Assembly: GCA_000310025.1 (NCBI GenBank)
Contig: FN649729.1
Location: 4,285,216 to 4,349,215 of the forward strand
Length of the DNA stretch: 64,000 nucleotides
Source: Ectocarpus siliculosus
Taxonomy: Eukaryota; Sar; Phaeophyceae; Ectocarpales; Ectocarpaceae
Reading direction: 5' to 3'
Position 1 is the first letter of the stretch. Every line of letters starts with the position of its first letter. Below are positions 25,801 through 44,514 of the stretch, piece by piece. The notes under the pieces are model-generated. The model was given only the letters and a program-made list of their open reading frames with translations. It searched no databases and was not told the DNA's origin. The position numbers were made by a program, and so were the translations under genes.

Positions 25801-27554
25801 CGCTCTCCCTCTCTCTCTCGCTGTCTCGTCTCCAGCTGCGTACGACAGCTAGAAGTGGTGTTGAAATCTAGGCACTTCCCAATCCTCTAGACGTGGGCGG
25901 GTGGCGTTTTGGTGAGATGTGATGTCGACTTCCCGAAGCAAGACCTGGTGTGCAAGGCGGCCAGTGCGAGTGGCACACCCAAGACGTACATCAATCTGCA
26001 CAGACACTTCATTTCGGGGCTCCGTGTATCAATCGGTGGGGGGTCGATCATCGCAAAGCACATGATGATTCATTTTTGTCTTGAATACTACACCACACGC
26101 CAGCAGAGGGACAGAGAGGAGATAGAAGGGGAGTAGAGAGACGAGAGGAGCGACAGAGAGGAGATATAAGGTTGCCGTTGTTTGTAGTCCAGCAATGCGG
26201 GACGGAAATCCTAGACGGCGTACCGCTCGAACAAAGGTTCAAACAGAGGTAAGTGGACTATTGTACAGCAGTAGTTGCTGTGAAAGTGGTCGTGCTGCTT
26301 ACTCCACAAATCATGACATGATGAATCGAACTAATAGACACGGGGGCTCTTACGTAGGAGAATTCTCGATGTACAGTAGTATAGCATGAACAAACACCTC
26401 CCCAGTGACATTGTGTAGAGAACTTATGGACTTTCCGCTGCAAGAAGAGCTTCGGGAGGAAGTCGGAGCCTTTTTGGCCAAAACTGGTCTTTTGCGAATT
26501 TCTGAATGAAAAGAGCACAGGCGCCTGCTGATTGGATGATGCGGACAGTCCAGATCTGGGTTCCAGGTGCAAGGCTGCCTCCCCACTCCCCACCTGAGCC
26601 GTGTCTTATCAACAGCCTTACATGCATCGAATGGGCCAATTGATACGGATTACAGACAACACCTTTGCAGGAACGCGTCGTAAACGGGACACGAACAGGT
26701 TGTAAGATTTACTCCTAGACTTGTAGTGTATGTATATTTAGGGAGAAAGCGAGACCTCTACTACTGTAGGTCCAAGCTCTAGTTTGCCCGGTGACTCCTT
26801 CTCATTTCATCGGTGGGTACGGTTTTCTTGCACGCTTGCCGCTGGTAGCTCTTCCAACAGTGCACTGATAGACGCGGAGCAACTTCGCTGCTGAACCTGC
26901 GGTATCGTCCCGCGATTCGCCTTCCACTAACTACTTACTCCCGTCTACGTAACACCCGCACCCACACTACTGCTGTTGTAGTGAAAGCAACGCCAACAAG
27001 CCGCTTTGACGGGTACAAACAGGGATGTGATTTGGTGCCGTACCAGGGATACCACATTTAAATCCCGCAGTACGTGTAGTGCGTCCCCGGGAACGGGGAA
27101 AAGCCTCTGCAATTCTGCCCTCCTTATGTCGACTAACCGCAAACATTACGGTGAGATACGAAAAGGCAGGTAAAACTATGTAACTTCCCGCCCCCTACAA
27201 CGGCAAGCACAACCTCAAACGAACATCAGTGGATTAAACTGGAACTGTTTATATTGTTCATGCGCACAATTGAGGAAATGTTGAACCCTTCTTGCGTAAA
27301 GAACCAAAGTCATGCACCGTAGAGGAGTTCTCCCGTGCGAATTCCGACTACGGGACCCCGGATCGGAGCTCGTCTGTTAGCGAGGGCCACCGCACGGTGG
27401 GAACAATTATTAATATAAGCGGCGGGTAATTAACAAGATGGCAAGAAAAAGAACGCGCACATGCTGTTGTCCCGATTCGATTGAAATGCTATCGTATGAG
27501 CTGTTGTTGATTATGGTGTCGATTTCGTTGTTGCTGTTGTCTTCACAGTTTTCA
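25801..27554. other. Gene-poor region upstream of the DEK-C-like gene
   Basis: 1.75 kb. A 76-codon open stretch from 25909 reads VDFPKQDLVCKAASASGTPKT and then YINLHRHF, which faintly recalls a BED zinc finger of hAT transposases; it is too short to claim. A GA-rich patch lies near 26103-26165, and a TTGTACAGCAGTAG half-palindrome near 26261. The rest shows nothing I can name. Confidence 0.45.
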
Positions 27555-28247
27555 CCCTTATGTGGCTACAGGCCGATTCAGCTCGGTTCTCACTCCGATC
27601 ACTTTGCGTGCCGAAAGATCGCCGTTGTGCCTCGGCTAAGAGCAAAAAACATACATAGAGACCAGCAGGGAGACACGGGCAGCCCACCCCAAAAGCACGC
27701 TTATCAGCAATGCGCACAGGACTCACACAGTACAATACTATTCACCCATGCCTAATCTCTCTGACGTGGGGCAGATATCCTTTCCAGATCCAATCTACTG
27801 CCTACCAGCTGTCAAGATTCAAACGCAAAATACCACCACTGAAGGGGACATACAGCACCCTGAACATGTGATCAACCCGGTGCCGCATCCGCGTGGGAGA
27901 GCAGAGAAAGCGCACACCGGAGCCGATGCTAACGTACTGCCTCGGTGCTTGATGTTGTTGTGATTGCGGTGCGTGTGGTTCCCAATATTGGGAGTGAAGG
28001 GTGGTTCGTCTGCTGTGTGCAAAATTTCGCTCAAAGGCAAGGGTTTTCGGGACTACAGCTCCGATCACAGCGCCGATCACAGCTCTCTATTTGTAGTACA
28101 GAATAGTTAAATTTATCACGATTTTTATGCATTTTGTGCGATAGTGGATGATGGTCTCGATTCTCTGATGAGCGGGCCGTTTTTTTGTCGATCTGGCGCT
28201 TCTGTGAGGCGGTTTCCCGTCAGCGTCTTCGCATCTAGCGCCGCTAG

Positions 28248-28304
28248 CATTTGCGCTTGCCGTATGCTCTGTCCAAGGATGAGGTGGAGAAGATGTGCCA
28301 ACAG
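28248..28304 (+). other. Exon-like 57-bp segment inside transposon copy 1
   Basis: Bounded by CTAG on the left and CAG/GTATTG on the right, it reads openly as HLRLPYALSKDEVEKMCQQ, a sequence with real-protein character and an amphipathic look. It lies in the middle part that is not shared with copy 2. It may be a captured host exon or chance. No neighbouring exons were found. Confidence 0.25.
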
Positions 28305-28423
28305 GTATTGCTTGCACAGGTACATCCTCTGTGCGCATGGTTGCTGTCGGAGACAGGCATGCACACCTGCTCAGAAACTACTGCTGCTGCTGTACAGCAG
28401 CCTATTTCTCTCCGCGTAGCTGC

Positions 28424-28441
28424 TACTGCTGTACAGCAGTA
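28424..28441. repeat. Perfect 18-bp palindrome TACTGCTGTACAGCAGTA
   Basis: This palindrome lies in the subterminal block of transposon copy 1, beside a second related hairpin (CTGCTGTACAGCAG) at about 28383-28401. Copy 2 holds the matching GCTGTACAGCAGTACAGCAG near 40847. Shorter versions recur elsewhere in the window. It could be a protein-binding or hairpin site of the element. Confidence 0.85.
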
Positions 28442-28642
28442 GTACTACTGTACTCCTGTTCCGTCACCCTTACATATACCGCGTCCCCATCCCTGTGAGC
28501 CCCACACATGGACCCACTGCTGCACCATCCTTGCCGCCGTGATTTATGGGTGTACACGCATGCTTGGAAGATCTTTGAACGCAGAGAGCCAGTTGTGGGG
28601 AAAAAAACAAAAAAAAATCAAATCAACCCAGTCACGTAAGGG

Positions 28643-30175
28643 TTAAGCGGTTGGGATCTCTATTCAGTACCCTCTCCCGCCCCTGTCAAGGGTCATACGC
28701 GTTCTCGTCAAGGGACATATGCATATTTTTTTTGTCAGTCGTCACAAGCTGACCCAAATATATGGTGGTCCCGGAGTAAGTCCCGGAAAGTGAAAATAAA
28801 GCAGCTTGGAGCAAGTCCAGAAAAGCAACAACTTACAGTAGCAGGGTAGAACAAGGAAAAAATCCACCAAATTTATTGGGACTACAGCAAGAGCGCTCAT
28901 TGCTCTGACTCGGACTGTGAGCCACAAGACATTTCAGTACATTACAAGTTAGCAAAGACCCGAGGACTGTTCATCGTCGGGATTCCGACCGGCCAGGCCA
29001 TCCCCATTCAACGCCCTGGAGGTGTAAGAAGGGACAACAACAAATCGAATGTAAACAAGCGCACCTGAACGTAGAACGCTCTGTCTTACAATGTATAATC
29101 TAAACGCGAGAGGGGGAATGGACGCCTTAGAAAAACCGAGAGAAGTGGATTTCTTTCTGGCTGATGAGCGAACTCTTGTTTTTGCTCCGAGTACTTCATT
29201 AGGTTTTCTTTATTTTTGGAGGTCAAGGATGGCACAGAACCAAGCTAACAAATGCTGCTGTTGTACAACGTAGGTTGTATTTTCTTGCGTTCATCGGGGT
29301 CAAGTGAACCTGGATGGTGTCGTAGCATACAATGCGTGCTTCAAAAATTGCACGTTCGTGTCAATGCTCCAAGATAGTTCTTGCCGTCCCTTTCCGACTG
29401 TATATCTGATATTTTAGGATGGAATCCAACGACCAAGGCCCGGGGAAATCGCACACTTGCTGCACATGGACATGGCTGCTCATCAAAAGAAGACAGCCGA
29501 CTTCAACAATGGGTGGAAGGTGATTCCTTGTTGAGTGAATACGATACTGTAGCGCTTGCCACCGGAGCCTACATTATGTGTACACGTTGTAGAAGTTCCA
29601 TCACTCTCTCATCGTTACGGTGTTGCCCACAGTTGGCCTCACACAACCGCTACTCTAATTGGCTCGTGAGTGTCATGAGTAGCGTTTTTCTTCAACTGAA
29701 GTCGAAAATCCTTGCCGCGAATCAAATCCAAATATCACTTTTATTCAATGGTTGGTATTTTTACCATACAGCCCGTGGATAATCTCTGACGGGGAGAGTT
29801 CCACATGTGTGAGTTGTCACCCCTGCGATTTCGGGCGTCAATTTGTACGCGTTGAAGTATGTTTGGACCCACCAGTTGGAGCACACTGGAGACGGCCATG
29901 CAGTTTATATTCTTTGTCACCTCCCTTCTGCTTTGCTGGCCATCGCGACAGGGATGCAGCCGTTCCTTTTCCTGGTCGACCATGAAGTTGAATTATGTGT
30001 GCACACGAATCTATCGTTATCTACCTTGTTGTGTGGGGAAAGTACGTACTTGAAGTAGAGAAACGATCCCGAATCATGTAACTGCTGCCGAGATTCGAGC
30101 TCCCAAACGTCAACCGTCAGAAAGTTGCAAGAATACCTCTAAACCTGGTGCGACTGGTAGCAGGACAAACCATCG
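28643..30175. other. Upstream region of the membrane-protein gene
   Basis: 1.5 kb following transposon copy 1. An A/T-rich part occurs around 28605-28740. Scattered open frames of 60-130 codons (such as 29381-29782) show no domain. The promoter of the gene at 30176 should lie at the right end. Confidence 0.45.
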
Positions 30176-30763
30176 ATGTCCCTCAATGTGAAGAAATACG
30201 TGGATAGCATCGGAACATGTTTTGCTCTTGCTCAACAGCAGTGCTCCTCAACGTTCATCGTGCTTGCCTCAAAATTTGAGCTTGACTGGCCTCTCTTTTT
30301 TTTTGCCTCGCTCTTTATCTGTCATTGGTGGCCCTCTCTATCTCTTGCTACTGTTGCACTTTCGCTCCAGCGAGCCCTCTTGTTTGCTTCGATTGGGCTA
30401 GCGGCCGTAAGCTTGCTTAAGGCGGTCGAGAAGGCCAGAGAAGGAGACTTGGGCTGGTTGGAGCGTGGCCTGACGTCGGCCAACGCTGGCCTCATTGGGT
30501 TTTGGGTGTCGCAGGTTGACCTTCAGACGGACAAGGCGTCTCTACTTTATTGCAAGATTGCGGCTTTCGCGGTGTCCCTGTACCAGCTGGTGTCGTGGTG
30601 GACTAGTCGACAAAGTGAAATCCACGTGGACTTTCCAGTAGCTGTTATTCTGCTCATCGTAGTTGTGGCCTCTGTCGCGTCGATGAAATCAGCTCTCAAT
30701 GAGGCGGACAACGCCTTCCGAGCAAGCGAAGCTCTTGCCGAGAAGGTAGATAGAAGACGTTAA
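30176..30763 (+). CDS. Intronless multi-pass membrane protein, unknown family
   Basis: A single exon of 195 codons from ATG to stop. It has four or five strongly hydrophobic segments: WPLFFFASLFICHWW (about 42-56), LQRALLFASIGLAAVSLL (about 64-81), NAGLIGFWVSQV (about 101-112), KIAAFAVSLYQLVSWW (about 126-141) and FPVAVILLIVVVASVASM (about 152-169). Charged, probably amphipathic linkers separate them. The C-terminus is a charged helix (EADNAFRASEALAEKVDRRR), as in proteins with a cytosolic tail. No signal peptide is evident. I do not recognise the family; peroxin-11-like organelle proteins have a similar size and layout, but no diagnostic motif is seen. The stop lies 93 bp from the kinesin stop on the other strand. 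Upstream exons cannot be ruled out. Confidence 0.65.
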   Translation: MSLNVKKYVDSIGTCFALAQQQCSSTFIVLASKFELDWPLFFFASLFICHWWPSLSLATVALSLQRALLFASIGLAAVSLLKAVEKAREGDLGWLERGLTSANAGLIGFWVSQVDLQTDKASLLYCKIAAFAVSLYQLVSWWTSRQSEIHVDFPVAVILLIVVVASVASMKSALNEADNAFRASEALAEKVDRRR

Positions 30764-30856
30764 GGAGATTTTCCCTCTCCTCGCTAGCAAGCTTCGTTGT
30801 CTTTGCGGTTGCGCTGCTCTTGCCCGATGGCCGTGATAGTGGCGGCAAAGGCTACC

Positions 30857-33800
30857 TTAGACGGCGGCGGTATCAGCTTCCCTCGAGTTAGCAGGGGACT
30901 GTGGTGTCCCTTGCATCAATTCTTGGTCACGCTGCTCTGCCTCCTTTGTTGCCTCCAACTGTACGGTCTCGTAGAACCTGCCGTATAGAATAGTATAGTA
31001 ATAGCATAAGTAGGGGTTCCGTGCCTACCGCGCGAGGTTGACGTCAAGAACAGCCGGATTGCTTGCTAGTGGATAACGGTTGTTCACATCAAGGGACGGC
31101 GCAAGTTCTCCACTCCACTAGCACACGCTAGAGGTCGCTTTCGAGTCGTACAGTACTAAGCCGGCGCCAGGTGTAGTTGGTGCCCTCGAAACCTCTCTAA
31201 ATGGTATGAATTGGGATCCCGAATCTGGGCGAAGCGATCTCTTTCCGAGTAGTTGTAGAGAGCGCTCTTGATTGTGACTACTTGGAAGCACAAGATACAA
31301 GTAGGAAGTACCTTTCTCGCCTGAAATACGGGCTTGTCTCTTTGGATAGAGATGACTTCGTTTCGTTTTTTGTAAGAGAAAAACGGCATGCGCCAGTTTG
31401 TTCTGTGTCACCCCGAATCTACCTCTTAGTGAAAGAGAATGACCGAAGCCTAAAATAAGAGTATTTTCTCGGTAAGTAGAATTGCGGATGGAAACAAACG
31501 TCAAACCTCCAACTATTGCCGAGTTAATGGTGTGGTGTTCACGGTTCACGATTTTTATACACGTGAGTGCACCTTTTCCCGGGAATGCGCCGCCGTCTTT
31601 GGGCAACCAACCTTCAACCTGCGTACGAACGAGTCACACTGGATGTATGCATGTAGTCGATGTACGATGTACGGCCCGCCCACAGAGGAGAGGGGAAGAT
31701 TAGGGGCGCATGATGCGAGATTCGATCCACAGGGATAGCTCCACGCTCTATCTCCATATCTCCACCCTAGGATTCCAGCCACTGCGGTTTGCCAGTAGCT
31801 CATGTCGGAATGCGTAACGAATTGTGCTGTGTTGCTCTGCAAGACCAAGGTCACGCGTGTGACAGGATACGCAGCAACCTTCCTTTACAGTACCTCTTCA
31901 GCTTAGCTTTCTGCTTCGCGGCTCGTCGTAGAAATTCTTCATCTTTTCTTCGTCGATCTCGATCAAGTTCGTCCCGTTTCTCCGATTCGCTTTTGAGCAT
32001 CTCTATTTCCCGCTGTTCCTTCTGCAACAGCCATGCCTGCAGCTGGATGTTCTTCTTCATTCGTTCCTGAAGTTGTGGATAGCATAACATTGGGTTCGGA
32101 AGACGTGAGTCTGATAGGCGACCTTGGCAGTGCTGCAGCTCCGAAGGAAGAGCAATCCCAGACGAAATATGGTATTACTGTAAGATGAGAACGATACGGA
32201 GAATGGCAGATCAAGCAGACGTAGAAAGCCATATATTTGTGTAGTGGTTCCACCGAATCGTGTCAACGACCACGGGCACAAGTATGATTCAAACGCTGTC
32301 CGGCGGTGCACGCCATTACGAACTACAGTAAGACATCGCTAACTTCGTCATTTCGTCATTTCAGAGGGGAAGGATGTTGTGGCGAGAAACGTCCAAATAA
32401 GCCGAAGTGTTCCGTACTCCTGAATTACCTTAGCCAGCCTTAGTTCTTTTCGAAGTTGCAGCTCCTCGTCCTTTTCCGTGATCTCCTTCTTCATCACTAC
32501 CACCATCTCATCTGCGTGCTTTCCACGAAGACGATAAGCCAACTTCTCCGACGTGTGGTCTTTCTTTGGCGTGACTGGGGGCAACGCAACGTGTTCGCTT
32601 TGCGACTTTTCCTGGTGCAGCTGCCCCCCGGCTGCAACCCCTCCTTTCCACAGTTGACTCGCTGCGGGCAGCCCCCCCCGTGTTTCGCTCTGCGCCTCTC
32701 CGGGGGTGCTTTTCTCATGCGAGTTCGAGTGTTCTTGAGCGTCTATTCCTTGCCGAATCGTCTGCTGAGCGGCAGCCAACGCAGAGCAAGAGTTTGATGT
32801 CGACACGTTCAAACTGTTGCACCATCTCGCTCCCCCGGGAATACTACCGCTCAATTGAGTCAATAATTTGGCCAGATCAGCGCGCAGATCTTCTTCCTCG
32901 ATGTCGAATCGGAAGAAACGCCGAATATCGAGTACTATGTGCTCGATAGCGGTGGACAAAGCCCTATTCGCCGCTTGCAGGGTGGCGACGTCCGATTCCA
33001 TTTGCCCCGGCTTGTTATCACTTTTGTCAACTGCCTTGGGACCCTGATTTTCTCTGAGAGCTGTGTTTTCCCGACGCAACTGATCTATCGTCTCCTGGTA
33101 CCCTAGCCTCTGAGCTTCAGCAAGAGCCGTGAGAGCAGGAGGCCGAGTGGGCCCATCGGGTGCCTCTTCGCGGAGGCTCCGAGCCTCTGCGGTATCTTGG
33201 ACTAACCCACGCAGATGGTTCACCTCAGCCTGCAGGCGATGAACCAGCGCGTGGTCTACAGGGCGGCGCTCATTCACCCTGACAAAGGCCATGACTTGCT
33301 TTGCCCGATCAGCAAAGCGTAGCGTGCTGATAGTCTCATCCACAGACTGACTTGCCGGTGACAGTGTGGCGATGATCCTCGTCCTGGTGTTCCCTCCGAG
33401 AGAATCTTGAAGGAGTCGTGTGAGCTTGGAGTCTCGATATGGAACATGGCCCTTGCGCGCGCCCCCCTCGCCGTGGGAATTAGGGGTACTTAACGCGGCA
33501 ATCACGCGCCCGAGCGTGTACAAGGAGACGTTGATGTTCGTCATCTCGCTAACACGAACCTCTGCCATATCTTGCTTCACGTCCCACTTCTCGGAACTGT
33601 GGCCCAACAATGGGGGTCGGAATTCGACGGTTAAGAGTCAGGCGCATTTGCACATGAAATACTACATACTCTACGTGCGCCCCCGAAGAGGGCAATGCAC
33701 GTGTAAGTACATGGTTGTTTGGTTTCGTATTCCTCATCTCATTACTTCTTTGTGAAGCTCCTTTTGGGAAGTCGACTTTTCTCTCAAGTACAGAGTAACT

Positions 33801-35421
33801 CAGGGCGCTGTACGTACATGTCCGCATAGTACATGGAGTCAGCCGGGAGAGGAACACTATCACGACCACCGTCGAGATGCTTACCCCGCGAGATCAACAA
33901 GGTTGAACTTCGACCGAAGGATGCGCTCCCCGTCTTGCTCACTCCGGCGTTTTTGCTCTACGACGATCTGGAAGATACTATGACTCCGACTTGATGCCTG
34001 ATTCATGTGGGTTTCTCGAATCGCTCTGTCAACATCAGGTCAATCGGGCAACGACCGGATAAGTTTGTATTGGTGAAGAAGAGCACATATATATCAAGAA
34101 TGGCACAATTTGTTGTCTCCGTCCGCACGCATGCAGCTTTCCCCCGATCGAGCTCTTCCAAGGGTCACTGAAAACCCACACCTACCTGTGTTCTCTCCCG
34201 ACACGTAACAACTGAAGGCATTCCCGGGCGCTGCGGACCGCATACTCGCTCAGCCCTTGTACGTAAATCCCAGCTTCCGCTTGCTCGTGTATGGCGAGTG
34301 GATGAATTCTCTGAGGATCTCTCAGCATGTCGAAAAGTTGTTCGTTGTAGATCTGGACGCCGCTGCACCACACTGAAGACTCACCAGCGCCGCCCATTTC
34401 CTGCCTTAAACCCGCCTTTGTAATGCGAGCACGACACAGAGTGGTTGCGGGGCGCGATGCTTGTGAGGTGTTGGGTAGGGGTGTGCGAGAAGGGAAAACA
34501 TACAGCAGTGCTGGCCCGCACGTAAGAAACCAACTCAAGAAAAATGCCTGGAGAAATTGAGCATAGCGCCCGGCACTACAACAAGCAGCAGTAATTACTT
34601 GTAGTTGGTTCCTACAAGGGCGGCCGACGGCGACGATCGATGGAGCGACGGCGGGGCGATCGACGAAGGCGGCCCAAGGCCGCTCGACCGACCGACCGAC
34701 CGAACCAACCCTACCCAATCCTACCCTACCCTATCCAACCCCATTTGTTCTTGTAAGAAGCCTTTGCTCTGTGGGTGGGGACGTGGGGACAACATATGTT
34801 TGAGCCTCGTTCAAAATACTACATGTACTGCCTGTAGATGTATGCACAAGTACGGTGAATACGCGTAAATCGTACGTAGAGCAATGGACAAAGCAAACAC
34901 TACTATGTAGACGGTGCAACGCAACATACGCCTTTCCTTCTTACCAGCCCCTGGAACAGATCGGTGACCGCCAAAGGGATGATTCCCTTGCCATATCCCG
35001 GCGCCGTGCCTCCATTCGCGTCTAAATCGGGCCCAAACATCGTGTACGTCTTGCCCGACCCGGTTTGTCCGTATGCAAAAATGCTTGAGTTCTCGCCCTC
35101 AAGGACAGCCGACGTACATTCGCGAACATGCGAGAACACCCCCTCTTGGGACACTTCTGACCCAATCACGGCATCGTAGCGACATTGCAGTTGCCTCTGT
35201 GCTGTCGCCCCTTTCACGCGTATCGTGTTTCCCTCCCCTATCACGACGGCGACGGGTCCCGCCTCGTTGGGCAGCAGCGGGCGTATGCGCACCAGCACCT
35301 TGATGTTCTCCCGTCCACCGTGTCTTGTCGGAGCACCAGGCGCGCTCTCCTCTAATAACCCTCCAGAGGCTTCATTTTCCCCAGCATATTTCTGTTCTTC
35401 AACTATATCTGATCGTGACAT
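30857..35421 (-). CDS. Kinesin with N-terminal motor
   Basis: Six exons on the minus strand: 35421-34945, 34400-34186, 34025-33885, 33596-32429, 32066-31894, 30977-30857. The CDS is 2295 nt (764 aa), all phases consistent. Motor hallmarks: [12 protein letters not shown] (42-53), P-loop GQTGSGKT (118-125), FxxIYNE as [12 protein letters not shown], switch I NQASSRSH (239-246), switch II DLAGSE (275-280), and [18 protein letters not shown] followed by IATLSPAS and [11 protein letters not shown]. After the motor come a coiled-coil-type segment, a long low-complexity linker, and two charged helical stretches ([20 protein letters not shown] and a later Arg/Lys/Glu run). Microtubule motility is expected from the intact ATPase motifs. 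The VRVNE neck sequence does not let me place it in a numbered kinesin family. Short for a kinesin; cargo unknown. Confidence 0.94.
34660..34745 (+). repeat. CCGA/CCTACC simple repeats in kinesin intron 1
   Basis: (ACCG)n followed by CCTACCC-type words. Superficially telomere-like, but the unit is irregular and short. Confidence 0.7.
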
Positions 35422-37072
35422 CCTTCTTGTACGGGAGCCTCCCTGACAAACTCGATGGCCCCTGGTCGACGACGTACTGCAACATACCACTCAACTTTTG
35501 TAAGCCCTAGAAGTAGAGACGGCAACAACGAGCTGCTCGAAATCAAGCCATTTGCAGCGTACAGGTCAGCAATGTACTACAGAAACATATCGGGTAGAGG
35601 TTGGTTGGAGAGTCTGGTCCAGAGAGTCCTGCACCCAGATCAACGATGCAGGGATCAGAGGCGTGTGGTGTGTAAATCATATCCAGACTGTATGTAGAGA
35701 TAGATACTACGAAAAAAAAATATCCGTTGTATCCATATCTTTTTGTCCTCCCCGGGGTTTCCAAGGTGCGAAATTCGGCTGCAGCCGCGGCAGGGTTTAG
35801 AACCAGTCGACCCGATGCAGTCACCATGGATACGTGGGTATCAGAGCAACTCAGACACAGGCCTCCAAACTGACATAAGCGCACGATACAGCGCGTCGTT
35901 GGATGATAAACAGCGTCAGTTTTATCCGTTCTGATCAAGGTCCAGTACCCAGCCGGTTTTCCTCCACTCACTGAAAAGACTCCACCACATCCCGTTCGAC
36001 TGCTGTGGGTGTATGTCTCGAATGGGTACTATTTTTGTGCGTGTATTTATTTTTCCATAATACTTGATGTACAACAGCAGGAAGAGAATGTTGTCCCGCA
36101 TAAACTGCATGAGCCGAGGATATGGTCGATGTTGTTCTTGTCGCCTCGGCAGCAGCAAGAACACCGTTCAGATGAATATCCCTCCTGCCTGTTCTTCAGA
36201 GGCCGCAACAGATATTCATGGTTGTAAGCTGCCCAAAAAATAGACAACGAACGTAAAGCATGTAGCCTAACGTTCCACCACCCGGCGAGAGAGTAAATTT
36301 CGTAGCCGGGAAATACACGTTCGATGCTACATACCACACGCGTGATCTTGTGTACTACCGGATAGCACCAGAGAACCTGCTGCCAGGATTGCGCACCCAG
36401 GGTCCGGCAATCCAACGCAATAATTCGTGCGCTGTTTGAGAGAGGGAATGAAGACACACCAGTATGCTTCGAAGCACTGCATGCATTTTCGGGGGGTTAC
36501 ACGAAGTTGTGTGGGGCACCGCCCTCGTTGCGTCATCTAATATTATGCATTCGGTACGCATGCAACCATTTCGAAACTGTTCATCAAATCACCTACCTAT
36601 AGTGATGGTACGTAGCGCACAGACTCGGGGCTTGGGACAACGCTACACAACAAACCAACAGCACATGCTACAGGCACACTGCTACACCATGCACCTTCAG
36701 AGAGCATTTTCTGTGCTCACAACCAACCGTGCTGCGCCGAGCTGCATATGACTGCTCTGAGTGCATAACACACAAGAAACTTACACGGAGGATATTCACA
36801 GCCACGGCAACACCAAGGAGACCGTTACACACATAACCAAGCACAGGCAAAACGCAAAATACGTCGCTGTCAACACGCAACTTTGAGACATGCAAATGCT
36901 GAAGGAACAAATGGATGGTAAACCCACTTACGGATAACCCACCTACTTCCATAGCCACTCCACGCGACAATTAATCACAACTGACTAAAAAATTCCTACG
37001 CCTACACCAGGTACAAGGACAGCCTCCGGTATGCAAGCGTTCTCGAATGGCCGAACAGTGGGAACCTCGGAA
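35422..37072. other. Intergenic, kinesin promoter side and RING gene tail
   Basis: 1.65 kb between two minus-strand genes. It should hold the kinesin promoter at the left and the RING-gene 3' UTR at the right. Open frames near 35543-35971 and 36047-36457 show no family. No repeat stands out. Confidence 0.5.
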
Positions 37073-39532
37073 CTACCCGACTGGGGCCGATCCGTGACCG
37101 CCCGCGCTCGAAGTTGCCGCTCTAACAGCTTGCCCTTGCAGGATACAGCAATTCGACGTTACATCCAGATCTTCCACCGTGCAGCCCCGTGCAGTACGTG
37201 CTCCCATCTTCGAGAGGAGCGGCTTCCTGTTCGCTTGAGAACATCCAGACTCCCTGAGCAGTTTGGCCTCCTGCAGCTGCCAGCGCTCTTCGAGTTGCAC
37301 GCTTGGCATACCCCCCACACCTTGGCGACCGGTTGCCAGAGTCAGCCTTGGCGCAATCTCGCAGATTGGCATGTCTCCCACGTCGCTGAACTCCATCGCC
37401 TCGTGCCAGCGTTTCCGAAGACAGGCCGCGTCCAAGCCGCCCACATCGCTCTTTCCGAATGACAACGCATCCTCGCTCCACGTTGGCAGATCGGTTGCCA
37501 GAGTCAGCCTTCCAGCGAGCTCGCTCACCGGCATGTCTCCCACGTCGCTGAACTCCATCTCCTCGTGCCAGCGTTTCCGGAGACAGGCCGAGTCCAAGCC
37601 GCCCACATCGCTCTTTCCGAATGACAACGCATCCTCGCTGCATGTTGGCAGATCGGTTGCCAGAGTCAGCCTTCCAGCGAGCTCGCTCACCGGCATGTCT
37701 CCCACGTCCCCGTACTCCACCGCCTCGTGCCAGCGTTTCCGAAGACAGGCCACGTCCAAGCCGCCGACATCACTCGTTTCAAACGTCCCATCCTCTCCGC
37801 ACCTTGGCGAATCTGTTGCCAGAGTCAGCCTTCCAGCGAGCTCGCCCACCGGCATGTCTCCCACGTCCCCGTACTCCACCGCCTCGTGCCAGCGTTTCCG
37901 GAGACAGGCCACGTCCAAGCCGCCGACATCACTCGTTTCAAACGTCCCATCCTCTCTGCACCTTGGCGAATCTGTTGCCAGAGCCAGCCTTGCTGCGAGC
38001 TCGCCGACTGGCATGTCTCCCACATCACCGAACTCCATCGCCTCGAGCCAGAGCTTCCGGAGACAGGCCACGCCCAAGCTCCCGACATCGCTCCTTCCCA
38101 ATGACAACGCATCCTCAGTGCACGTTGGCAAACCGGTTGCCACAGCCAGCTTCCTCGCGAGCTCGCTGACCGGCATGTCTCCCACGTCGCCGGCCTCCAT
38201 GGCCTCGTGCCAGCGTTTCCGGAGACAGCCTGCGTCCAAGCCGCCGACATCGCTCGTTTCAAACGGTGTCGTTTTCTCCCCACGGGCTAGCAAATCGGCT
38301 GCCAGAGTGAGCCTTCCAGTGAGCTCGTTGACACGTTGGTCTCCCACGTCGCCGATCTCCATCGCCTCGTGCCAGCGCTTCCCGAGGCAGGCTGCATCTG
38401 AGCCACCGACGTCGCTTGTTTCAAATGGCGTCACATCCTCGCTGCACGTCCGCAGATCGGTTGCTAGAGTCAGCCTTCCAGCGAGCTCGCTCACCGGCAT
38501 GTCTCCCACGTCGCCGAACTCCATCGCCTCGTGCCGGCGTTTCCGGAGACAGGCCGCGTCCAAGCCGCCGACATCGCTTGTTTCAAACGGTGTCGTATTT
38601 TCCCCACGAGCTGGCAAAGCAGATGCGGATGCATCAATTCCAAAATTGCTAGGCGGGATCCTGAGCGAGCTGTGCCGTTCAAGACACATTGAGTTCACCC
38701 GGCCCCCTCCGGCGCATTGCGAGTCAGGGCTCCTGCGCGGGCTGGCACCTGTAAAATGACTGCCAATATCGGCGTGGCCGGAGCAGCTGAGGCTATCAGC
38801 TCCGTGCAACACCTGACAAGAAGTGCCGAAAAGGTCGCCCTCACTGTGGATGGGCATGGGAGAGCGCGATCTGTCGTGCGATTCCCGCCACGAAGAACGA
38901 AGCTCGGAAGACGATGCTGCTCCAGCGGTTGAACTTGCCGTTTGCACACCGCAGCTCCATCGACGGCGAAGATCGTCGGATGACATCGCTCCTACGTCTC
39001 CTCCCAGACCAAAAAGCACTTCACGCTGCGTCGTTGAGGTTGGGACAACCCCCACTCTGACCCGCACCTCCTTTTCTTCGCATGCCCCTTCGCTGGCGGA
39101 CATGGCGGCGCCTGTTGCGGTAGGGCGCGAGCGCACCGGCGGCGGCGGGATCGCCAGGCGCTGAGCGAGGTTCAGCATTCGTTGCTCATCGAATCGGGCG
39201 CGGAGTTGCTCTGGGTCGATCTCCTGCTCCCGTCGGCAGAGGGCGCATGAGGTCATGTTGTTCGCGGCCGACTGAATGAGGCACGAGCGACAGAAAGAAT
39301 GTCCACACTGGAGCTCGATGGACTTCGTGCACGAGTCTAAACATATAGGGCATCTGGTTTTTTCTTCCTTGCCTCCGAGTCCACGTGGGGGGCCAATTTG
39401 GATTCGGTACTTCTTGCAGAACCACGTGAAGAAGTAAGATGTCGTGTCGTTCAGCCGAGACAGTATAAAAACGTCGGCAGGGGCGATTCCGGTCCGAAGA
39501 GCACCGTCTGCAGCATCCAAAGAGCACGACAT
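37073..39532 (-). CDS. RING-finger protein with 53-residue tandem repeats (putative E3 ligase)
   Basis: A single exon of 819 codons. Residues 61-99 form a C3HC4 RING: C61-P-I-C64, C76, H78, C81, C84, C96, C99. RING domains recruit E2 enzymes, so an E3 ubiquitin ligase is likely. A Ser/Arg-rich linker follows, then eight units of about 53 residues from about residue 315 to 740, each containing CLRKRWHEAMEFGDVGDMPV, SELAGRLTLATDLP and a closing TPFETSDVGGLDA. Each unit looks like two related halves, each beginning DVG and ending L-x-x-R-W/L; a lone half, DVGAMSSDDLRRRW, lies near residue 180. Units 5 and 6 are almost identical in DNA, showing recent array turnover. The opposite strand is open for 498 codons only because of the repeat. 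The repeat is unknown to me; substrate binding is a guess. Introns appear absent, unlike most neighbours. Confidence 0.83.
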   Translation of the reverse strand: MSCSLDAADGALRTGIAPADVFILSRLNDTTSYFFTWFCKKYRIQIGPPRGLGGKEEKTRCPICLDSCTKSIELQCGHSFCRSCLIQSAANNMTSCALCRREQEIDPEQLRARFDEQRMLNLAQRLAIPPPPVRSRPTATGAAMSASEGACEEKEVRVRVGVVPTSTTQREVLFGLGGDVGAMSSDDLRRRWSCGVQTASSTAGAASSSELRSSWRESHDRSRSPMPIHSEGDLFGTSCQVLHGADSLSCSGHADIGSHFTGASPRRSPDSQCAGGGRVNSMCLERHSSLRIPPSNFGIDASASALPARGENTTPFETSDVGGLDAACLRKRRHEAMEFGDVGDMPVSELAGRLTLATDLRTCSEDVTPFETSDVGGSDAACLGKRWHEAMEIGDVGDQRVNELTGRLTLAADLLARGEKTTPFETSDVGGLDAGCLRKRWHEAMEAGDVGDMPVSELARKLAVATGLPTCTEDALSLGRSDVGSLGVACLRKLWLEAMEFGDVGDMPVGELAARLALATDSPRCREDGTFETSDVGGLDVACLRKRWHEAVEYGDVGDMPVGELAGRLTLATDSPRCGEDGTFETSDVGGLDVACLRKRWHEAVEYGDVGDMPVSELAGRLTLATDLPTCSEDALSFGKSDVGGLDSACLRKRWHEEMEFSDVGDMPVSELAGRLTLATDLPTWSEDALSFGKSDVGGLDAACLRKRWHEAMEFSDVGDMPICEIAPRLTLATGRQGVGGMPSVQLEERWQLQEAKLLRESGCSQANRKPLLSKMGARTARGCTVEDLDVTSNCCILQGQAVRAATSSAGGHGSAPVG
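37290..38600 (-). repeat. Eight-unit 159-bp coding tandem repeat
   Basis: Period about 159 bp, visible from the recurring CCATCGCCTCGTGCCAGCG (near 38520, 38361, 38202, 38038 and onward at the same spacing). It lies inside the RING gene. Copies around 37700-37960 are nearly identical; outer copies have drifted. Confidence 0.9.
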
Positions 39533-40668
39533 GGCGAACGAATGCGGTCAATAGTAAGCTCACGAAGGTTGCAGAATACATCAGTTCATGCGGCAGCCGT
39601 AGTTACCTTCGCTTCGGCACCTTGCGCTGCTGCCAAACTCGCAACAACGCCACCGAGACTCGTCCAGCGTCGCCCTATATATTGCCGCATTTAAGGCTAC
39701 GCCAGGCTCCACACAAGAACAAAAGCGTTGTAAAGAGGGGATGGCGCTTCGCAGAACCAAACGAAACAAATTGAATTTCGAGAAAGGGATTTGCACAAAA
39801 GCAGCTTTTTATGGGGGGGACAAAAAAAAACACATAAAAGCATGTTTAAATAACGTTTTGCGCCGTAGATCGAAAAATCAAAATGTGCCAAATCCAAAGC
39901 CTCTATATGTTTTTGTGTTTTGAGAACATCCGGTCATCCAGCTACATTCGCGTTCAACCCGTTTGTTGATCGGGTATACACACGTGGAGAACCGCGGCGA
40001 CGCGTAAAACGACCAACAAGATCGGGCGTCTTGGCCAAATTTCGGGCTGCTGCGTGCAACACATATGGTTCACGAGGACACCTCTAGATTGGTTTCTGGT
40101 TGTCTGTTGCTGCTGTCAAGTCATGCGACGCCACTCACACACCATATCGGTAGGCCCCAGCAGTTTCGAGCAGTGCGGTTGCTTGTGGCGTGCTGTAGCT
40201 GTCGGGGAAGCACACTTTGCTGCGCTGGTTCAACAAAAATCTCGGCGGGAAGATCGTGCTCAAATAATGAAATAGCCAGCCCCTCGATCTCGCGCTTCAA
40301 GGCCTAAACTGATATGTATGCGGCACATTCTTGCACGACGGGGTTGCTCAAGCTGGTATGCAATCTCCAAAAAGATGTAGAGGTTTGTGTCTCCTGAACC
40401 AAAGCGCCGGAGGGGATAATTGAGATTTTTCAGCAGCGGGCACCTCCCGGGATTTATTATCTAGCAGTTTGAGCTGTGATAAAAAAAAAAGTTAGGGAAA
40501 AAAACACCATCGGAGCCCCGGGGGCAGGGGACGGCGAGGAGCCTGGCGTAGCCTTAACTTGAGAGGAATCCCGCCAAGGGCACGCTTGAAATGGCGTCCC
40601 CCTCAATGATTCATAGGCTACACCAGGGCGCGAAACGAGCCCTGCTGTCACTGCTGGTGTCTTCATAA
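39533..40668. other. Upstream of the RING gene
   Basis: 1.1 kb before transposon copy 2. It contains A-rich runs near 39823-39835 and 40482-40503. No gene is supported; an open frame at 39741-39923 is low-complexity. The RING-gene promoter should lie at the left end. Confidence 0.45.
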
Positions 40669-43389
40669 CCCTTACGCCACTGGGCTCATTTGACTATTTT
40701 TTTACCTTCCCACGACTGGCTCTCTGTTCTCCAAGATCTTATAGCATGCGTTCATGCACACACATCACGGCGGCAAGGCACAGCAGTGAGAATGAACCCA
40801 TGTGTGGGGTTCACAGGGGTGGGGGCTGCACAGGAGTAGTACGATTGCTGTACAGCAGTACAGCAGTAATACATGAAGAGAGCATATTTTCAGCATGTGA
40901 GCATGTGCATGTCTCTCTCCGACAGCAACTTTCTTTGAGCGAGATCTGAGAGACAGAGTCATCGCCGCGAAATTATTTCTTTTCCAACGGCATCACTTTC
41001 AGCTTTCCTGCGCGACACGGGAGTATTCGATCACACGTTGCTGAGTTCGCAGCGTAACGGGGCGAGACCAAGACTTTCCAACCCGCCTGATCATCGCCGA
41101 CATCCGGCACTATCGCTCGCTGTGTGAGATGTCCTCCCTGTGACTCTCATGGTCATGGTGTTAATCACTTCACCGGACACTTTTCAGGCCTTTTTCGTGT
41201 CACCCAGGAGTTATTTCCACCATGTGTCCGAGTAGAGCCAACCCGAAATCGAAAATCGAAATCAAATTCGCACCGTAAGTTTCGAGTATCGTCTCCTAAA
41301 AAACGAAAATTGGTTAATTACTTGAGATTGTATGGATTAATTAAATTTGCCAGAGCAGTGGCAAGTGTGAGAGGGTTCGTAGAAGAACTGTTCCTCCGTA
41401 CACGATTTCGCTCATACAGAAGCCGGGCTGCACTGACTGACACCTGGCACCAGGGGTATTCGTTGTTTTTTGCTGTTGAGAAAAGAGTTTTTCACCACAT
41501 GTTGTAACGAAGAGTGGGCCGCGTGTGGGCTAGGGGACAGACTTCTATCCGTGAGCTTTCCCGCCTTATGTTCACTTCCCCCAAGTTTGGCGACTTTCGC
41601 CAATGGCCAAACAGCATCGCCGCAAAGTGCTTGCGTCCGAAAAAAATGATCTTGCCTCCATATCGTCTCCCCGAAACCAAAAACATTCCCCAAACCAAAA
41701 ACAATTAATTAATTAAATGAACACACCCCATATATATATGTACATATAAGATTTGGTCACTTTTCATGGTTCGGCGTTTCTTTCTCTCGCGGCAGCGAGT
41801 CTTTTATCGCAATTCCTTCTCAGGGGCACGCAGGAGGCTTGTCGGTACATTAACGCCCGTGCCCGGAGCTCGGTAGGCCTCCGTGGCGCGTGTGGATGAC
41901 GTCCAAAGTTGCGAAAACTGGCTCAAAAACCCGGTGACGCGTTCCGCGCTGAAAAAGCCTGGCGAACCAATTCTGAAACCAACCAAACCCATCAAATACG
42001 ACGGTTTGAAATATTTGCCTCTTGCCTCTCCACAATCTCGTTCTTTCATTCATTCATTCGATGATTCATGGCTGTGACTCTTCGTGTCATCGCGTTGTCC
42101 AACAGCAGTACCTACGTTTACTACACTTCGCAGCGGGCCAAGTGCAGACAAGTTTGAGAGCATGCATCCAGCCGCAGTGTTGAACACGTGCCATTTGTGG
42201 TGTTGTTTCGGCTTCAAATTCGGTTCTCATCGGAAATCTGCCATCATCAAAGACGTCATGGAAGTCTGAGTTTTCGCTGCCAAAATATTGTCCGCTCGAG
42301 CTGGCTTAAATGTAGAATAACAATGTGCGCAATGTTTAGTGCGGAAATACAAGCGTTGTAAGACACACAGTCCCTCTTCGGGCAATGCGCATGTGGTCTT
42401 GCGTCACCTGAGGGAGGGTAGACACCCACGTCCCGAAGCGAGACCGTGTGTATATATATCATTGTACTCAACAGTACTCAGATATTTCAGTGCTGCAACC
42501 TACCCGCCGCAACCCCTACCTGACGAGTATTCGAGTATTGACTATCGCTGGAGTCGCTAGTGGTGTACAGCAGTGTGTGGTGCGTGGCGGTGGAACACGC
42601 AAGACCCGCAGAAATTGCCCGGCACGAAGTGATGTCTTAATAATACTACCGGTCTGGGGGGGGGTTCACCGAGAATGAGTACCAGGGACACTCAACCATA
42701 CTCGAAGGCTATGAAGTATTTTCAAAGATGCATATATTCAACCATACTCCCGAGGTGAAGTAAGTGAGCGTCGAGTATCTCACTCTCGAGTACGTACTCA
42801 AAATACTCTTGAATGCATATGCATACGTGTAGTGCATACCAAATACAACCATTTGCAATTCTGTACCTGGTACAAGAACAAACGAACGGTGTCAGAAGTC
42901 TAAGTCTGATACTAGCGTAGTAGTGAACACGTCACCCTCTCCCACGTCGACAAATTGCACACAAGACGAACCTCCTTTCACTCCAAAAAACGGGAACCGC
43001 ACACATGGCAATCACAACAACAGCAACCGCGGCAGTACACATCACTGCTCTCTCTCGCCCACGCAGGACCGGGTTGATCACTACATAGTAGCCGCCATGG
43101 TATAATCGTGTTTTCCGATACATCGTAACAGCCCTACTGCTGTAGCGGTTCATTGGTTCTGAAAAGGGCATCTACCCCACATCAGAGAGCTTAGGCATGG
43201 CAAATCGTAGTGGGTGTGTGCACATTTGCTAAATGTACGTGCTTTTTGGAGTGGGGTACCTCTTTGTCTTGCTGCTGCTCTATGACTGCTGTATGAGTCG
43301 TTCTTGCGGCAGGCCGGCGATCTTTCCGCGCGCAAAGTGATGGGACATGAGAACACTGAGTCCGACCAGCAGTCACATACTAGTGAGGG
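40669..43389 (+). mobile_element. piggyBac-type DNA transposon, copy 2 (no transposase seen)
   Basis: The left end CCCTTACGCCACTGGG follows ATAA (40665-40668), one base from TTAA. The right end ...AGTGAGGG is followed by TTAA (43390-43393), and its complement CCCTCACT mirrors the left end. Blocks 40669-40975 and about 42955-43389 match the two ends of copy 1 (27555-28642) in inverted orientation. The 2-kb interior is different and holds an open frame at 41883-42077 (SCENWLKNPVTRSALKKPGE...) that I cannot assign. Superfamily placement rests on the TTAA target and CCC termini; a DDE transposase was looked for and not found, so it is non-autonomous or eroded. Confidence 0.7.
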
Positions 43390-44514
43390 TTAAGGAGCTG
43401 ACACAAGCGGTGATCGTTGCTTTGAAACCCTTCCTTCCCAAGAGCTGTAACGATACGGCTGAGGGGGTAAGAGCGGCTCGCGTTGGATGGGCTCGAATCT
43501 TACATTCGTTTGCTTTCGCTACCTTTAGGTGGCAACACATCATCGAGGGTCATGTCGGACAAATTTGCTGCGACGTTGGGAAATGTCAACCCCTATGACC
43601 CACCACAGCAGCAAAAGCACACAAGAAGCAGTTGGGGAAATGTCAGGCTTCTGTCCTTTCTCGCCTTGGCTCAAAAGTTTCAAACCCCGCGCAACCCTAT
43701 GGCACATCCTACTGCTGGGAGTTGGATTTTTCCAAGTTTCAACCACACCTGTTCGTGTGTGTGCCCGAGACTGCAGTGCTTTCAGGCGAGTCCAAGACCA
43801 GTGAGGGGAACCAAACAAACTTAACCTCCTGGCTCAATCATGCATGCTCTGCATGCATTGCCAAAATGGTCTTACCCCGACTCTCCTTACCGTCAAGACG
43901 GGGCGTACTGGAGCACTCGAGCGACAAAGACCTCGCCGGTTTCGGCTTGTTGAACTTCGAGTCGCCGCGCCCGCGACTTCCTCCTGGCCGAGACGCCATG
44001 TCAACATCGCCACCTTGATCCATGCTCCGCTTCACTCTCCACACAAGGAGATCCAATCCGCGGCGAGGGTAGAACACCTGTCGGAGAGTTCGGTCCTACA
44101 ACCGCCTGCTTGTTGAGAAGCTCCGAGGGAGCCCGCGCGTCACCTACAGCAGTTTACAGGAAACGTTGATGATCTTCTCTCCCTCCCCTCAGCACTTGGA
44201 TTTCCTCGCTAAAGCATGTATCCTGGATCGAAGAAGAGGCAGGCAGGTTCCGGCCTTGATGAGGGGCCGGTGACGGCCAGGATAGTAGTTATTGGCTAGT
44301 GCTGGTGTGATGGATGTGGACACGTCAACATGATGGTGAAGTGCTTGACATGCTTCAAACTGGTGAGGGGTCCCAGCCCGAGAGATTGAGCGAGCGCTGG
44401 GGAGGGGGGGGCACGCAATTTGCGATCTGGCAGTTGCGCCATTTGCGCCAGCTCATTTGTGCTGTGCATACACCGCGCGCAACGTACCGAGGGGCGGGCC
44501 CACACGCTCTTACG
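43390..44514. other. Upstream region of the sterol reductase gene
   Basis: 1.1 kb between transposon copy 2 and the reductase ATG. A frame starting at 43552 (MSDKFAATLGNVNPYDPPQQ) looks more protein-like than chance for 30 residues, ends near a possible donor, and could be an upstream exon of an unknown gene; no partner exon was found. A C-rich/G-rich patch lies near 44400-44410. Confidence 0.4.

Follow-up and report, generated by a model that had tools for sequence, protein, structure and literature searches.

A non-autonomous piggyBac-type family in Ectocarpus siliculosus and its probable 9.94-kb partner element

Introduction

Two repeats with related ends stand in opposite orientation in a stretch of the genome of the brown alga Ectocarpus siliculosus (contig FN649729.1 of assembly GCA_000310025.1, positions 4,285,216 to 4,349,215; the whole stretch of 64,000 nucleotides is called the window below). 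Copy 1 occupies 27555-28642 on the minus strand of the window and is 1088 bp long, while copy 2 occupies 40669-43389 on the plus strand. In this genome, one exon of the type III polyketide synthase agrees in 91 of 91 residues with PDB 4b0n, the E. siliculosus enzyme, in keeping with an Ectocarpus or a very near relation. The locus raises the question of what kind of element these repeats are, what moves them and whether they belong together. A preliminary description, made from the sequence of the window, had taken them for an inverted pair of piggyBac-type elements. On the evidence presented here it is highly probable that both are non-autonomous DNA transposons of the piggyBac superfamily, similar to miniature inverted-repeat transposable elements (MITEs), which are mobilised by the DDD (three-aspartate) transposase of a 9.94-kb element found elsewhere in the genome, or of a relative of that element.

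A dispersed family with defined ends

Copy 1 was used to search the genome (189 Mb in 492 contigs), and the best 40 of 242 candidates were scored, so that the copy number given is a lower bound. The search returned 42 matches in at least 40 loci, copy 1 included, most of them spanning the full 1088 bases. The other 39 loci, which are 89-98% identical to copy 1, were examined with approximately 200 bases on each side. In most of the copies examined the homology stops at the same CCC/GGG. Its border has the form CCCTTACGTGACT...AGTCACRTAAGGG, with CCCTTACGTGACT on one side and AGTCACGTAAGGG or AGTCACATAAGGG, with variants, on the other. The head of the family reads CCCTTACGTGACTGGGTT, and the tail, read inwards, CCCTTACGTGACTACAGG or CCCTTATGTGACTACAGG. 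In many copies the 13-bp sequence CCCTTACGTGACT is present at both ends, forming a short terminal inverted repeat (TIR) that starts with CCC. Copy 1 itself has CCCTTACGTGACT as the TIR of its head (28630-28642, minus strand), which is the GGG-type end (...ACTGGGTT), and CCCTTATGTGGCT as the TIR of its tail (27555-27567, plus strand), which is the ACA-type end and reads CCCTTACGTGACT or CCCTTATGTGACT in many other copies.

The flanks point to TTAA as the target. Ends were located with up to four errors allowed; the right ends of two copies (L057 and L067), with several errors, are doubtful. The left end could be located in 36 of the 40 copies and is preceded by TTAA in 29 of these 36. For the right end a position was found in each of the 40 copies, with TTAA after it in 26, and 17 of the 40 copies have TTAA on both sides. 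The background frequency of TTAA is 0.00134 per position (0.13% of window positions). The small family has the TTAA target-site duplication of the piggyBac superfamily. In copy 1, a perfect TTAA was read directly in the right flank (28643-28646) and a decayed target-site copy, TTCA, in the left flank (27551-27554); other copies also show one-base variants. Copy 2 has a decayed ATAA to its left (40665-40668) and a perfect TTAA to its right (43390-43393), both likewise read directly. For both copies, the coordinates, the CCC ends and these flanks agree on re-reading with the preliminary description. That description had also named what would speak against its assignment, i.e., homology extending past the CCC ends or flanks with another target; instead, the copies end at CCC/GGG and are mostly flanked by TTAA.

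The copies are spread over the genome. A comparison of the flanks of all copies with one another yielded only one pair (L041 and L072) with matching flanks. Among the 38 copies that were aligned, leaving out L074 and L075 with their large extra insertions, the median pairwise divergence is 5.6%, and nearest neighbours differ by 1.1-8.1%. Copy 1 has no evident coding capacity. A coding search gave 12 open reading frames (ORFs) of at least 50 codons, the longest in or overlapping copy 1 having 105 codons; no transposase-like ORF lies in or across copy 1, and nothing convincing was found in the 12. A search for structured RNA in 27300-43700 gave no Rfam match at gathering thresholds. The small family is MITE-like, in that it consists of many short non-coding copies that have the ends of an autonomous element. 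At about 1.08 kb, its members are longer than typical MITEs.

A large element with a piggyBac transposase

A full-length relative with a DDE transposase, proposed in the preliminary description as something to look for, is present in the genome. A profile search with PF13843, the piggyBac-type DDE domain, yielded 29 matches, which were counted as 25 places. In this tally four N-terminal matches were assigned to other places; three of them lie 1.2-1.4 kb from their partner, and the fourth (C16) lies 5.5 kb from its partner and may count as a separate place. Nine of the 25 places have the exact end TTAACCCTTACGTGACT on the strand of the DDE match, 4.9-5.0 kb upstream of it. This end is missing at the expected distance in the other 16 (C234, C16:664899, C187, C472, C474, C184, C137, C122, C91, C50, C7 and others), which are probably in part other piggyBac lineages and in part copies of the large element that are damaged or lie at a contig end. 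At the C66 place, for example, the element is the same, with ggaa in place of TTAA before its end.

The large element was read at C25:990827-1000772 (L076), where it measures 9,938 bp plus a TTAA on each side, so that TTAA borders directly on CCC. At the 5′ end it reads CCCTTACGTGACTACACC, and inwards from the 3′ end CCCTTTCGTGACTGGGTT. These two ends are unlike, one being of the ACTACA type and the other of the ACTGGGTT type, with the TIRs CCCTTACGTGACT and CCCTTTCGTGACT. Among ten further copies, two of which are internally shortened (C241 and C456:126634), the 5′ end was found in all ten, with TTAA in nine. The 3′ end was found in nine, one of them degraded, with TTAA in eight; in the tenth copy this region contains Ns. 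When the last 3 kb served as query, 16 places, its own included, matched over the whole length at 99-100% identity (37 of 37 candidates), which indicates that the large element was recently active or recently duplicated. With the DNA that follows the 3′ end as query, 12 matches start exactly at the TTAA (query position 620; best 27 of 938 candidates), which fits insertion of the large element into another repeat. The 5′ flanks of three copies (L076, L080 and L131, on C25, C162 and C23:3486967) resemble one another (..GATGAATTTTTAA), yet the copy on C25 and that on C162 do not agree in their 3′ flanks.

The large element contains the DDE_Tnp_1_7 (PF13843) transposase domain. Three stretches of L076 match this profile, two of which pass the curated cut-off (E 4.3e-5 and 3.5e-13), while one falls short of it (E 0.02). 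The central stretch also matches the piggyBat transposase (PDB 9c0f, E 1.2e-5). By eye, the reading frames contain CYDEQMV, IAMDNYFTS and GGVDTADQ, followed by a cysteine-rich C-terminal stretch. We take the aspartates of these motifs to be the counterparts of D268, D346 and D447 of piggyBac, the first and third motif being placed without alignment, and the C-terminal stretch is presumably the counterpart of its cysteine-rich domain. Judged from these motifs, the three catalytic aspartates of a piggyBac-type transposase appear to be present. As the transposase stretches are broken by stop-containing sequence, introns or decay must be assumed. Upstream of them lies an ORF of 293 codons (L076:520-1401). 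For this ORF, a Pfam search up to E 10 gave one weak name only (PF17696, E 0.19) and the best PDB match had an E-value of 0.89. Its classification as an OTU-type protease, considered because of its motif DGHCGF, was dropped, as it has no significant Pfam or PDB relative.

Unoccupied target sites

At least three large-element copies, on C24, C53 and C456 (the shortened one there), occupy the same TTAA of one dispersed repeat, which ends in an A-rich run, GTGTCATATTAAGAAAA (L099-L110, L085, L090 and L094). To represent the empty site, the flanks of the C24 copy were joined at a single TTAA and searched in the genome. Among the best 40 of 1063 candidates there were 41 matches, of which 40 span the junction and one, the occupied C24 copy itself, does not; the C53 and C456 copies are not among the matches listed. 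The best 12 unoccupied repeats were read, and all 12 are uninterrupted at the site, ten of them with ATATTAAGA, i.e., an exact TTAA, and two with ATACTAAGA. For the large element, this shows the TTAA target directly. The piggyBac superfamily, which the preliminary description had derived from general rules on the ends, is now supported by the TTAA flanks, by a DDE element that has both end types and, for the large element, by unoccupied sites with a single TTAA.

What moves the small family

Each of the two unlike ends of the large element has its counterpart in the small family, in opposite order. The head of copy 1 is identical to the 3′ end of the large element in 17 of 18 bases, and both end types agree between family and element over 16-18 terminal bases. 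Because both unlike ends match, the large element, or a relative of it, very probably moves the small family. Copies 1 and 2 carry no transposase of their own. The DDD transposase of the 9.94-kb element or a relative would recognise the two unlike ends CCCTTACGTGACTGGGTT and CCCTTACGTGACTACA, cut the element out and join it into a TTAA, which would leave TTAA on both sides. The movement would be cut-and-paste, as in known piggyBac elements, and from the likeness of the ends we infer that mobilisation takes place in trans.

TTAA is also targeted by other DNA transposons, e.g., Kolobok. This use of the same target, together with an interior of the small family that is unrelated to the large piggyBac element, would be compatible with movement by a transposase of another TTAA-targeting superfamily. 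Since both unlike end types match those of a piggyBac element over their terminal 16-18 bases, such an origin is very unlikely. A more serious alternative is that not the 9.94-kb element itself but a more closely related piggyBac element, which has since been lost or escaped the present searches, moved the family. The absence of interior likeness favours this, as do the 16 PF13843 places that have no exact 5′ end at the expected distance, although some of these are the same element, as at C66. On the other hand, both end types agree closely with those of the 9.94-kb element, which has tails of 99-100% identity among its copies, and we regard a closer relative as possible, at well below even chances.

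Several observations weigh against the preferred explanation, i.e., mobilisation of a piggyBac-type family by the large element or a relative. A perfect TTAA is missing on the left in 11 of the 40 small-family copies (seven located ends with variants, five of which differ in one base, and four ends that could not be located) and on the right in 14 (nine one-base variants and several damaged ends). The evidence from unoccupied sites concerns the large element, not the small family. Moreover, BLAST shows no likeness of copy 1 or copy 2 to the large element in its first 9.4 kb, and its last 619 bases are matched only through the 18-base end (copy 1) and through 17-base stretches that resemble simple repeats. 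An origin of the small family by internal deletion of the 9.94-kb element was considered and is not supported, since no common subterminal or internal sequence was found; there is no convincing likeness beyond the ends of 16-18 bp, so that a simple internal deletion of the large element does not account for the family.

Possible further families with the same ends

The exact 17-mer TTAACCCTTACGTGACT, i.e., the end of the copy 1 head with the preceding TTAA, occurs 96 times in the genome, while its reversed control does not occur. Of these 96 ends, 31 belong to scored small-family copies, nine lie upstream of DDE matches, three stand before parts of the large-element tail and 53 are unassigned. 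Forty of the latter were examined, of which 21 are of the GGG type, 18 of the ACA type and one is neither. At some of these ends (e.g., L132, L142 and L139), the subterminal sequence is by eye unlike that of the small or the large family, which suggests additional families in the genome that share these ends. The outer flank cctagtagtc is common to eight of the 40 ends (L114, L140, L143 and L144-L148). These eight lie at C4:3726505 and on C94, C120, C121 (three times), C130 and C182, seven of them on contigs shorter than 180 kb, and seem to go back to a single small-family insertion that spread by duplication. Some insertions are thus not independent, these eight and the three large-element copies with similar 5′ flanks among them. 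Tentatively, and with less than even odds, one brown-alga piggyBac transposase may serve several families that share little but the two unlike ends of 16-18 bp (GGG-type and ACA-type), the polarity of the ends itself being conserved. On this reading, the ORF L076:520-1401, which precedes the transposase, may also be an accessory gene of the large element.

Copy 2 and the inverted arrangement

The preliminary description had given the two window copies a common head of about 300 bp and a common tail of 430-480 bp. The likeness is real and far beyond chance, with E-values for head and tail of 1e-23 and 4e-23, but a little less continuous than that. In a direct comparison, the heads are 72% identical over 217 aligned columns, with a further 34 columns at 88%, and the tails 66% identical over 452 columns. 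The right end of copy 2 is degraded (CCCTCACTAGTATGTGACTG, read inwards), and its last 10 bases do not align to the family. The tail of copy 2 gave 48 matches besides itself, at 65-82% identity, 26 of them in loci of the copy 1 family and 22 elsewhere; close relatives of copy 2 were not found among the best 40 of 104 candidates in this search. Its first 204 bases have one other place in the genome (C2:1086883, 71%), and positions 260-602 of the head query have two more (76-79%).

Much of the extra length of copy 2 consists of other high-copy repeats, of which there are at least two. The first, an unrelated dispersed repeat of about 430 bp, is nested at 41287-41718; 41 of the 45 matches to the head query are confined to positions 619-1050 and have 77-97% identity. 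The second, of about 720 bp and also unrelated, lies at 41735-42449 with approximate borders. Forty other matches, at 88-94% identity, cover it wholly or for the most part, two of them being neighbours on C456, and seven shorter ones lie inside it; in the same search (best 40 of 605 candidates) no other part of copy 2 was matched. The likeliest reading of copy 2 is that it is an old member of a related subfamily, which would have been inserted earlier than copy 1 and hit by other repeats afterwards.

Do the two copies nevertheless act together? Their opposite orientation and related ends could be those of a composite transposon of about 15.8 kb, in which the inverted copies bound the membrane-protein, kinesin and RING genes and move them as a whole. 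The copies are only 66-72% alike, which indicates that they were probably inserted at different times; each has its own TTAA or one-base variant at both ends, as independent insertions do, and the right terminus of copy 2 is degraded. With a difference of about 30% and separate target-site remnants, the composite transposon was rejected, although no search for a second copy of the 12-kb middle was made, and we give it next to no credence. Nothing ties the copies together as a unit. What stands of the inverted pair is that there are two copies in opposite orientation; they are two members, of different age, of a dispersed family, and their inverted arrangement would be coincidental. The genes between them include, by eye, a kinesin motor and a RING protein. 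The large RING-type ORF at 37073-39547 (minus strand) has 824 codons from stop to stop and contains several near-identical repeats, SDVGGLDAACLRKRWHEAMEFGDVGDMPVSELAGRLTLATDL, also noted by eye.

Comparison with known systems

The small family is real, well supported and ordinary in kind, and leaves general ideas about transposons unchanged. For a non-autonomous piggyBac family of a brown alga, the ends and the target are now defined and a likely partner is at hand, the large element, whose near-identical copies suggest that it was active or duplicated recently. The result would be useful for annotation and for strain markers, and possibly as a start for an insertion tool in brown algae.

The preliminary description knew of no described family with these ends in this lineage. 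In the open-licence literature no title or abstract describes the small family in Ectocarpus, and the part of PMC3706591 that was available mentions this genus only for Dada elements. However, piggyBac families of Ectocarpus have already been listed: the accessible part of a 2025 paper on Ectocarpus sp. 7 strain Ec32 gives four PiggyBac families with 1588 copies, of which 289 are intact, making up 0.48% of the genome, and the giant elements it names are KDZ, EnSpm and Sola-1, not piggyBac (PMC12477816). The small family is of the same genus and superfamily and is likely one of these catalogued families, so that only its individual description may be new.

Non-coding elements with a similar link to piggyBac have been described in corals. 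According to the part of that report available, the CMITE family is non-coding, its spread is seemingly related to piggyBac-like transposons and the origin of its interior is unknown (PMC2872659). The small family resembles it in being non-coding, probably linked to piggyBac and of unknown interior origin. It differs in the organism, and the coral elements can form tandem arrays and have interiors that are more conserved between families than their TIRs.

Regarding the large element, the closest comparison is a set of animal piggyBac elements, for which the available part of the paper reports CCCTT as the most conserved TIR motif, a TTAA target-site duplication and lengths of 1.23-9.51 kb (PMC10813416). 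Compared to that set, the 9.94-kb element is slightly longer, and its transposase domain, unlike theirs, lies in several stretches parted by stop-containing sequence. The Ectocarpus system and the animal elements are alike in the TTAA duplication, the short TIR with CCCTT, the DDD transposase domain and the occurrence of one-base variants of TTAA.

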